A stretch of DNA of 64,000 nt from Streptomyces sp. SID13031 (lineage in GTDB: Bacteria > Actinomycetota > Actinomycetes > Propionibacteriales > Kribbellaceae). The notes under the pieces are model-generated. The model made no database searches and was not told the origin of the DNA. It worked only from the letters and a program-made list of their open reading frames with translations. The stretch lies in NCBI RefSeq assembly GCF_010548305.1, contig NZ_JAAGLV010000011.1, forward strand, positions 62,001 through 126,000. The letters are read 5' to 3'. This document shows positions 20,094 to 38,459 of the stretch, piece after piece. The position numbers were made by a program, and so were the translations under genes. Every line of letters begins with the position of its first letter. Positions within the stretch are counted from its first letter, which is position 1.

Positions 20094-20102
20094 GCCGCTC
20101 TT

Positions 20103-20202
20103 GTGCACAACGACAGGAGGTAGTGCCTGTTTTGTGGCCGACCGCCGCTCCCTTGAGCGTGCAGCTCGACCGGACAGCCGACTACTTCCTGTCGTTGTGT
20201 AC
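20103..20202. repeat. 100-bp palindromic repeat element, copy 1
   Basis: Imperfect inverted arms at 20103-20124 and 20181-20202 agree at 20 of 22 positions and share ACACAACGACAGGA-type sequence. The core at 20137-20161 (GCCGACCGCCGCT...TTGAGCGTG) agrees with 40398-40422 at 22 of 25 positions, so this is a dispersed family. It fills the convergent gap between E2 and TetR and could end transcription from both sides. It has no coding capacity. Confidence 0.75.
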
Positions 20203-36402: not shown

Positions 36403-38459
36403 GTCCGTACCTGCGGCTGGCGTCCGGTGATCCGGCTGAGCCGCGGCTGGGTGCGGCGATCGCGATCACCGTGGATGGTCAACCGGCCAAGGCGTTGCCG
36501 GGGCAGAGCGTCGCGGCCGCGCTGATGGCCGATGGTCGCGATTCTTGGCGTACTACGCGTGGCGGCGAGCGGGCGCGTGGCGTGTTCTGCGGGATCGGCG
36601 CCTGCTTCGACTGCCTGGTCGTCGTCAACGGCTTGCCGGACGTACGCGCATGCCAGCGGACTGTCTCCGCCGGCGACTCGATCAGCACGCAACACGGCGC
36701 AGTCCTGCCTCCGACGCGGCCTCCGACGCCGACGCCGACGGCCGGGGGTCATCAGAGCGACTTTGTGCACCACCTGAGCGTTTTGCGGCAGGCCAAACGC
36801 TCAGGTGGTGCACAAGGTGCTCTGGGCAACGGAGTCCGGGTGGTGCCGGTTGTGGTGGTGGGAGCGGGGCCGGCCGGGATGAGTGCTGCGGTGGCGGCGG
36901 CTGATGCCGGTCGGGAGGTGTTGCTGGTTGATGCTGCTGCGAGTGTCGGTGGGCAGTTCAACCGGCAGTTGCCTGCGGAGTTCCGTGCGCGGCGACCGGA
37001 GAAGTTGCAGCACGGCTGGCGGGCGTTCGCGCGACTCCGCGATCGGATCGCCGCTGACCCGATGATCACCCACCTGAGCGACACCAGCGTGTGGGCGGTC
37101 GAACGGCCCACGGACGTGTGCGTCGGACGTACCCGGCTCTGGTTGCAGACTGGTCCGGCCGATGCCGCCGGGCGACAGGTCTCGGCTGTGGAGACTCCCG
37201 CGTTGGTACTAGCGACGGGCGCGTATGACCGAGTGCTGCCGTTCCCTGGCTGGGATCTGCCGGGTGTCTACAGCGCAGGAGCCGCTCAAGCACTGGCGAA
37301 GGGCCAACGAATCGCCGTCGGCAAACGAGTGCTGGTAGCCGGTACCGGCCCTTTCCTGCTCCCCGTCGCCGAGTCCCTGGTAGGCGTCGGCGCCAAGGTG
37401 ATCGCGCTACTGGAAGCCAACCACCCGATAACCGTAGCGAAGGGCTGGCTCTCGGACCCGGTAGCCGCTGCCGGCAAGTTCCTCGAAGGCGCTACCTATG
37501 CGGCTCTACTTGCCCGCCACCGAATCCCCCTGAAACACAGCCGCACAGTCATCGCCGCCCACGGCACCAACCGAGTAGAAGCAGTCACAACCGCCCGCCT
37601 CGACCGCGACTGGAACCCGATCCCCGGCACTGAAGAACGCATCGAGGTAGATGCCGTCTGCCTGGGGTTCGGCTTTACTGCCAACCTCGAGCTCGCAGTC
37701 TCCATTCGCTGTGAGCTGGCCGAAGGCGCGGTAGTAGTGGACGACAACCAGCAGACCACCGCGCCGGGCGTCTGGGCAGCAGGAGAGCTGACAGGCATAG
37801 GTGGAGCTGCTCTGGCAGCGGCCGAGGGACAGGTAGCAGGCGCGGCGGCTGCCTCGGCCTCGTCGCCTTCGGCGACCTCGGGAATGGGTGAGGGAGAAGG
37901 CGCAACCAGGGCGGTTGCGAGTGGGGGCGTATCCAGTGCGGTTGCGAGCAGGGGTGCAGCCAGTGCGGTTGCGACTGGAGGTGTCGCCAGTGCGGTTGCG
38001 GGTGGTGGTGTCGCCAGTGCGGTTGCGACTGGAGGTGTCGCCAGTGCGGTTGCGGGTGGTGGTGTCGCCAGTGCGGTTGCGACTGGAGGTGCCGCCAGAA
38101 CGGTTGCGAGTGGAGGTGTCGCCAGGGCGGTTGCTAAAGGCAAGCGGTTTGCGGTGGCTCTTGCGGCTGCTTATCCCGTGCGGGATGGGTGGCTGGGGTG
38201 GAGTGACTCCGGGACCGTTGTGTGTCGGTGTGAGGAAGTGGAGCGAGGCGCGGTCGAAGAGGCTGTGGGGGTGCGGGAGGTGGAGGGGGCGCGAAGTTTG
38301 AAGCTTGCTTGCCGGGCTGGGTTGGGGATGTGTCAGGGGCGGGTTTGTGGGCGGAATGTCGCCGCGATCAGTGGAGTGAAGCAAGGGGACGGGCGGCCTG
38401 TGGGGCAGCCGGTTCGGTTGGTGGATTTGGCTTCGGCGGAACAACTGGAGGACTTGTGA
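36399..38459 (+). CDS. Fused ferredoxin-FAD oxidoreductase-BFD protein (HcnA-HcnB-like)
   Basis: 686 residues from GTG 36399. Residues about 10-105 form a [2Fe-2S] ferredoxin-like domain with Cys in VFCGIGACFDCLVVV and VRACQRTV. Residues about 150-480 are a pyridine-nucleotide-disulfide-type flavoprotein (VVVVGAGPAGMSAAVAAADA; KRVLVAGTGPFLLPVAESL). The C-terminus is a BFD-like [2Fe-2S] domain (VVCRCEEVERGAV; CRAGLGMCQGRVCG). These modules are usually separate HcnA and HcnB subunits. Two odd linkers occur: a 53-bp palindrome at the ferredoxin-FAD joint and about eight 9-residue repeats (AVATGGVAS type) before the BFD domain. It should carry electrons from the upstream oxidase. Confidence 0.87.
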   Translation: MSPYLRLASGDPAEPRLGAAIAITVDGQPAKALPGQSVAAALMADGRDSWRTTRGGERARGVFCGIGACFDCLVVVNGLPDVRACQRTVSAGDSISTQHGAVLPPTRPPTPTPTAGGHQSDFVHHLSVLRQAKRSGGAQGALGNGVRVVPVVVVGAGPAGMSAAVAAADAGREVLLVDAAASVGGQFNRQLPAEFRARRPEKLQHGWRAFARLRDRIAADPMITHLSDTSVWAVERPTDVCVGRTRLWLQTGPADAAGRQVSAVETPALVLATGAYDRVLPFPGWDLPGVYSAGAAQALAKGQRIAVGKRVLVAGTGPFLLPVAESLVGVGAKVIALLEANHPITVAKGWLSDPVAAAGKFLEGATYAALLARHRIPLKHSRTVIAAHGTNRVEAVTTARLDRDWNPIPGTEERIEVDAVCLGFGFTANLELAVSIRCELAEGAVVVDDNQQTTAPGVWAAGELTGIGGAALAAAEGQVAGAAAASASSPSATSGMGEGEGATRAVASGGVSSAVASRGAASAVATGGVASAVAGGGVASAVATGGVASAVAGGGVASAVATGGAARTVASGGVARAVAKGKRFAVALAAAYPVRDGWLGWSDSGTVVCRCEEVERGAVEEAVGVREVEGARSLKLACRAGLGMCQGRVCGRNVAAISGVKQGDGRPVGQPVRLVDLASAEQLEDL
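36763..36815. repeat. 53-bp perfect palindrome inside the fusion gene
   Basis: Arms of 21 bases (36763-36783 and 36795-36815) are exact complements around an 11-base loop. The arm contains TTGTGCACCACCTGAGCG. It falls in the linker between ferredoxin and FAD domains, encoding FVHHLSVLRQAKRSGGAQ, and keeps the frame open. It looks like a mobile palindromic insertion. Confidence 0.85.
37911..38135 (+). repeat. Tandem array of 27-bp units (about 8.3 copies)
   Basis: Units start every 27 bases from 37911, each beginning GCGGTTGCG (unit 8 begins with A) and encoding 9 residues such as AVATGGVAS. Units 3-4 and 5-6 are identical as 54-base pairs, indicating recent duplication. The array makes a flexible Ala/Gly/Val linker before the BFD domain. 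Such arrays vary in copy number between strains. Confidence 0.93.

Follow-up and report, generated by a model that had tools for sequence, protein, structure and literature searches.

A dispersed palindrome of Kribbella, found in frame in an oxidoreductase linker, and its candidate AbiEi/Vsr-like nuclease partner

A palindrome that lies in frame in an oxidoreductase gene of a Kribbella soil bacterium (the source genome, G000; other G numbers denote further Kribbella genomes) is one copy of a family of short elements, two of which bracket a gene for an AbiEi/Vsr-like protein. We consider it rather probable that the palindrome is a non-autonomous dispersed repeat spread by a dedicated AbiEi/Vsr-like nuclease, the gene of which is bracketed by elements of the same class.

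Results

The palindrome and its host gene

As the earlier note had described, the palindrome at 36763-36815 is perfect, with 21-bp arms (36763-36783 and 36795-36815) that are fully complementary around an 11-nt centre, and it lies in frame in the linker between the ferredoxin and FAD domains of a 686-residue oxidoreductase (Table 1). It encodes residues ~122-139, between Fer2_4 (residues 19-99) and Pyr_redox_2 (residues 151-475). When mismatches are allowed, the inverted repeat extends over 36760-36818 (27-nt arms, 93%) and ranks first of 35 in the window, that is, the whole 64-kb stretch of DNA that was analysed; among the best 25 of these 35 inverted repeats, the second-longest perfect arm measures 14 nt. 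A relaxed search returned only four inverted repeats of this kind in the window, the palindrome being one of them. The host gene adjoins DAO-type, DHDPS-type, and hydroxyproline-epimerase-like genes, and these surroundings look like a hydroxyproline-catabolism cluster, a pathway that we infer from the apparent gene types. The second linker of the host gene (about 37890-38130) contains an Ala/Val/Gly-rich tandem repeat of ~10 residues, which is absent from the closest relative, G030.

Table 1. Positions, within the window, of the palindrome, its parts, its host gene, and a copy of a second palindrome family
Feature	Position	Strand	Remark
53-bp palindromic element, core copy (G000:C20:98763-98815)	36763..36815		sole copy in a coding sequence among 57
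61-bp conserved extent across copies (SACY ... RGTS flanking the 53-bp core)	36759..36819		profile of 114 half-sites from 57 copies
Left half-site, TTGTGCAC-CACC-TGAGCG	36763..36780	+	
Right half-site (inverted), same sequence as left half-site	36798..36815	-	
17-bp spacer between half-sites	36781..36797		constant length in 38 exact-ended copies of the source genome
Host gene, fused Fer2_4 + Pyr_redox_2 + Fer2_BFD-like oxidoreductase, 686 aa	36399..38459	+	
Copy of ~100-bp second palindrome family	20101..20202		arms 20103-20125 / 20180-20202

The palindrome belongs to a dispersed family

Using a degenerate pattern with at most one mismatch, we found 59 copies in the source genome and none for a control pattern, so the palindrome is a repeat rather than a chance occurrence; this also answers the question, raised in the earlier note, of whether it recurs elsewhere. 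A length of 53 bp is common to all 38 copies whose TTGTGCAC ends are exact, although centre gaps of 20-50 were permitted by the search. The retrieved loci provide 57 distinct sequences, a set that leaves out more-mismatched ends and three copies of weak symmetry; with genes called around them by a codon-score caller, 56 of the 57 are intergenic, and the copy in the window is the one that lies within a gene.

Beyond the source genome, the exact-ended 59-bp pattern listed 75 stretches, all of them in Kribbella, among 84,980 species genomes (one genome per species, the source genome's own record possibly lying outside the set). Elements are present in 30 of 38 Kribbella genomes, with 0 to 250 copies per genome when the 53-bp form is counted. 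Most are 53 bp long, but lengths of 52, 54, and, in a few cases, 56-59 bp occur too. Their outer motif reads mainly TTG[T/A/G]GC.C, the inner motif varies by species, and tandem arrays occur. Clustered elements with recurring spacings of 83, 104, or 175 bp were seen at L094, L095, L096, and L202 (in G003, G013, G008, and G016). In Kribbella sp. VKM Ac-2568, the 53-bp element lies within longer similar repeats of several hundred bases that are present in many copies (L110, L113, L114, L117, L152, L157, L176, and L179).

Elements bracket an AbiEi/Vsr-like gene across the genus

In the source genome, two elements bracket a 354-codon gene (G000:C102:349072-350133), the protein of which matches the PADLOC AbiEi models (best 1.1e-10) and scores just below the cut-off of Pfam AbiEi_1. 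A DUF559 match is present in 1 of 21 members of this gene family and is weak (E 0.08). The conserved positions of the bracketed protein read RVDF...EADG..K...FGWED, and those of the form RVDF...ExDG..K...W.D are common to the bracketed protein and its DUF559-type paralogues; it is on these common positions that the putative assignment as a nuclease is based. PDB profile and NCBIfam searches with the protein gave no credible match, a Pfam search did not find a Y1 domain in it, and an AlphaFold2 model of the nuclease-like protein, calculated from a three-row alignment, has a pLDDT of 41.

Relatives with >50% identity occupy 28 loci in 23 of the 38 Kribbella genomes (a count that leaves out one fragment, G032:C1:6499695). 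At 27 of these 28 loci, matched inverted repeats are found on both sides of the gene, and the 28th, in G007, begins 202 bp away from a contig end and has elements on the uncut side. Nineteen of the 27 two-sided loci, including G034, G017b, and G029b, stand beside eight at which the element sequences are different or decayed, six of these eight forming a second-locus group around TTGAGAAG-CCACCAACCA, with the remaining two represented by G022, in which the right-side element has decayed, and by G031, which has a different inverted repeat.

Elements are found in 22 of the 23 genomes with a gene of >50% identity versus 8 of the 15 without one, and 10 of these 15 hold distant relatives (34-40% identity, E <= 1e-20). 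The eight genomes with elements and no such gene include K. rubisoli (G019) and G001, the latter assembled in 590 contigs and holding 250 copies. Lost or unassembled genes could account for these eight genomes, as is seen solely in G015, which no longer has the bracketed gene and retains one complete element at the locus. In Kribbella sp. VKM Ac-2568, the bracketed gene is absent from the main locus despite the many element copies.

Element class largely follows gene clade

Element class largely follows the clade of the bracketed gene, also within genomes that have two such genes. Elements of the TTGTGC class bracket the seven genes of a supported clade (97/97), the TTGAGC/TTGGGC class brackets most of the remaining genes, and in both K. 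kalugense (G013) and K. soli (G024) there are two genes of different clades, each with its own element class. The group statistics for the clades rest on labels that were too strict, because five gene rows first labelled as element-less were later found to be bracketed by other sequences. In all five testable genomes, the half-sites that flank the gene are best fitted by the profile of the dispersed elements of the same genome, with a tie in G003 and a narrow margin in K. soli (21.6 versus 21.1).

At its main locus, K. soli has flanks that are 93-95% identical to those of G029, and no alignment above 78% is obtained between the two across the stretch that holds the gene and both elements. Relative to G017 and G026, its identity is 93-96% in the right flanks and 80-82% in the alignment that runs through the gene. 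K. soli also contains dispersed elements of both classes, as expected if the gene and its brackets were exchanged there.

Some paralogues have palindromes of their own

Five of the ten AbiEi/DUF559-type genes in the source genome (at C102, C42, C45, C31, and C9) have a palindromic sequence common to both flanks, compared with 6 of 500 random intervals, all of which were drawn from the 64-kb window; at the other five genes, no shared flank palindrome was found. Each positive gene has its own palindrome sequence, and the palindromes at C9 and C31 resemble each other. For L185 (C42) and L182 (C9), gene bounds were set by hand after the motifs had been seen, and the right copy at L185 is one arm only, near the contig end. 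Four paralogues of the source genome exceed the Pfam DUF559 cut-off, and three of them (C9, C31, and C45) have their own palindromes. Among divergent relatives in other genomes, two of seven qualified, weakly, on short self-palindromic sequence.

One such sister family, of ~100-bp elements, is represented in the window (Table 1), and its arms match 19 times, at 16 places of the source genome; two other copies flank the DUF559 gene at G000:C9. The earlier note had remarked that the palindrome in the linker begins like the left edge of the 20103 element, and this holds for that copy, which shares the TTGTGCAC edge, and not for most ~100-bp copies, which differ there (GTGCATAACG, GTACACAACG); the 20103 element belongs to another family of palindromes of that kind. 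Nine near-identical 103-bp copies lie in otherwise unrelated flanks (L235, L236, L239, L241, L243-L246, and L249), which is strong evidence for a recent spread of the ~100-bp family. A further left block, GTTGCGGAATGGGA, is present in seven of these nine copies and missing from two.

Half-site symmetry and alternative explanations

The 114 half-sites of the 57 copies share the consensus C-S-A-C-Y-TTGTGCAC-SRSS-TGAG-YR on both sides, and the arms covary only weakly. Arms pair at 915 positions, somewhat above the 883 (s.d. 12.6) obtained for randomly recombined half-sites, and the excess is found mainly at positions 9-12 (97 versus 81, s.d. 6). Strand-specific wobble amounts to 361 versus 241 by fair-coin expectation, an excess that vanishes against permuted half-sites once near-copies have been removed (z 0.7). 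Because the half-sites vary nearly independently, a symmetric protein site on double-stranded DNA is favoured over a selected hairpin; the data point to such a site and are still compatible with some coupling between the arms.

Near-independent half-sites at a fixed spacing resemble the site of a dimer, and the elements might be just that, i.e., fixed operator or chromosome-organising sites of an AbiEi-like DNA-binding protein, immobile and kept by selection, with the bracketing of the gene reflecting self-regulation. The location of copies between genes and the lack of target duplications agree with this. We nevertheless regard it as rather unlikely, given that the copy number ranges from 0 to 250 between species, that tandem arrays occur, that the same gene holds an in-frame copy in two lineages, in a different linker in each (see below), and that the nine near-identical copies of the sister family sit in flanks otherwise unrelated to one another.

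Alternatively, an ordinary DDE transposase that has escaped notice could mobilise the elements as miniature transposons, the nuclease-type genes being passengers. Short inverted-repeat elements in dispersed copies are what such a transposase would leave; however, no target duplication was found in a set of 42 distinct copies (best z 2.8 among 1152 combinations of boundary and length), and all 38 exact-ended copies in the source genome have a single length. Moreover, one gene subfamily is bracketed at 28 loci, with an element class that largely tracks the gene tree, and paralogues have palindromes of their own; we hold this reading to be improbable. The lack of target duplications also weighs against the reading that we favour, and so does the lack of an empty site resolved to the base or of a precise insertion junction; an alignment of ten genomes downstream of the nuclease-like locus revealed variable intergenic DNA and no clean element insertion. 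Further points on that side are the eight genomes that have elements and no gene of >50% identity, the deviating class of the in-gene copy of K. antiqua (see below), the slight surplus of arm pairing, and the five AbiEi/DUF559-type genes of the source genome at which no shared palindrome was seen.

Very improbable, finally, is a role as transcription terminators or RNA hairpins selected for pairing. The orientation of neighbouring genes would suit it, the 51 intergenic copies with both neighbours called being distributed as 19 convergent, 27 co-directional, and 5 divergent, as would an arm pairing slightly above random; yet the sequence common to the half-sites accounts for most of the pairing, the wobble excess is gone against permuted half-sites, and no Rfam match was found in seven element loci.

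The palindrome lengthens a linker in a gene that was already fused

The host protein was matched in all 38 Kribbella genomes searched, and at all 30 orthologue loci (30 loci of the 38 genomes), the ferredoxin and Rossmann (FAD) motifs lie in one open frame; none of these relatives has separate ferredoxin and FAD genes. The palindrome is present at two of the 30 loci, in G000 and, with a diverged left arm, in its closest relative G030, and an arm-motif search did not find it at the other 28; 11 of the 30 loci were also aligned, with K. antiqua as a twelfth row. On this comparison of sequences, the fusion is older than the insertion of the palindrome. The proposal in the earlier note that the palindrome created the ferredoxin-FAD fusion, made plausible by its position exactly in the linker, can thus be virtually dismissed, with all 30 orthologue loci fused and 28 of them lacking the palindrome.

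The distance from motif to motif is 97 residues in G000 versus 69 in G007 and 78 in G028, the nearest orthologues without the palindrome (i.e., 28 and 19 residues more, respectively). Shorter linkers in relatives that lack the palindrome are thus found, as had been suggested, yet linkers of 115 (L020), 99 (L016), and 99 (L022) residues exist without it, and linker length is therefore naturally variable. The earlier interpretation is borne out in part: the palindrome is a dispersed repeat, keeps the reading frame, and contributes residues to a linker that already existed, and its supposed role in the gene fusion is not supported. Conservation of the palindrome-encoded residues in all fused orthologues, which would have spoken against the earlier interpretation, was not found, 28 of the 30 loci being without the palindrome.

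The same gene of K. antiqua also holds an element in frame, in this case in the second linker, ahead of the Fer2_BFD-like part. It is of the CCGTAC class and differs from the elements that bracket the nuclease-like gene of K. antiqua itself. At the G030 orthologue (L010), the left arm of the shared element starts with TTGTGCTC, and the right arm is identical to that in G000; the elements that bracket the nuclease-like gene of G030 (TTGTGCTC, TTGTGCTT) resemble the left arm at L010. An arm-wise adaptation of the shared element in G030 is possible.

Discussion

If the palindrome is spread by the AbiEi/Vsr-like protein, its recognition unit would be the inverted pair of half-sites of 53 bp (61 bp with flanks), and the putative nuclease, acting as a dimer, would recognise these half-sites in double-stranded DNA. 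The nuclease-like protein would then spread copies, probably by cutting and by copying during repair. The copy in the window most likely entered the linker after the fusion and before the split of G000 and G030, and was most likely tolerated because the reading frame stayed open. From the arrangement of genes and elements, we infer nuclease activity, the binding, cutting, and mobilisation of the elements by the protein, and the way in which they would be copied.

The same proposal can be extended to the paralogues, and here we see the chances as evenly balanced: Kribbella may harbour a set of palindrome-nuclease partnerships in which each AbiEi/Vsr-like gene is bracketed by its own double-stranded palindrome, which it recognises and spreads. 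These partnerships would be convergent with REP/RAYT and of PD-(D/E)XK type; a joint exchange of a gene and its brackets would switch their specificity, and they would occasionally contribute protein sequence in frame.

Short palindromes are common in bacterial genomes. In Kribbella, a repeat and its candidate partner co-vary across the genus, within single genomes, and between paralogues, and the question of what spreads palindromes therefore becomes testable. If true, the proposal would suggest a role for AbiEi/DUF559-type proteins, and the copy in the window illustrates how a repeat can extend a protein linker without breaking the frame.

Literature searches on Kribbella palindromic or inverted intergenic repeats returned nothing on these elements, and searches on repetitive extragenic palindromes and transposases in actinobacteria returned nothing about these repeats, in both cases judged by titles and the starts of abstracts and with most subscription journals outside their reach. 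The matches listed for the string TTGTGCAC were unrelated by title. No literature linking DUF559 with dispersed palindromes was found by title and start of abstract, nor any on REP sequences and RAYT in actinobacteria, most subscription journals again lying outside both searches.

The closest known systems are REP/REPIN repeats, which together with RAYT (TnpA-REP) transposases make up 'REPtrons'. REP/RAYT systems are described as multi-copy short palindromes, mostly between convergent or co-directional genes and occasionally in genes, that form species-specific families with a cognate gene flanked by repeats (PMC3733652, PMC8266576). The Kribbella elements are likewise multi-copy and mostly intergenic (56 of 57), with a copy number and an inner motif that vary by species, and copies of the repeat flank their candidate cognate gene, at 27 of 28 loci on both sides. 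They differ in that the foot consensus, C-S-A-C-Y-TTGTGCAC on both sides, contains no GTAG (or CGTC) tag, in that the half-sites are symmetric and nearly independent whereas the REP hairpin is recognised as a single strand, and in that the bracketed protein is AbiEi/Vsr-like. No Y1 (RAYT) transposase was found as a partner: a search of the source genome for the Y1 HUH transposase (PF01797) gave no match at E <= 0.001, while the control was matched in 5 of 14 genomes. Because we found no Y1 transposase in the source genome, no GTAG foot, and at most a weak coupling of the arms, we do not file the elements under REP/RAYT.

Rickettsia palindromic elements (RPE) can sit in frame inside protein genes, and in this they resemble the copies in the window and in K. 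antiqua. The Kribbella element, by contrast, lies in a gene in just 1 of 57 copies and has a candidate cognate gene. R. conorii RPE are tagged CGTC, and CGTC REPs are described as having no known partner (PMC3733652). With the miniature inverted-repeat elements (MITEs) of insertion sequences, the Kribbella elements have in common that they are short, non-autonomous, dispersed, and built as inverted repeats, but no target-site duplication stands out in them. On the side of the protein, DUF559 is described as Vsr-like PD-(D/E)XK (PMC12907096), and the bracketed protein is like AbiEi antitoxins and Vsr-like DUF559 endonucleases in matching AbiEi models and in having the positions of the DUF559 paralogues. 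The pair matches none of the known families tested here in its defining features, and the palindrome and the nuclease-like gene may represent a previously unrecognised kind of repeat/protein pair.
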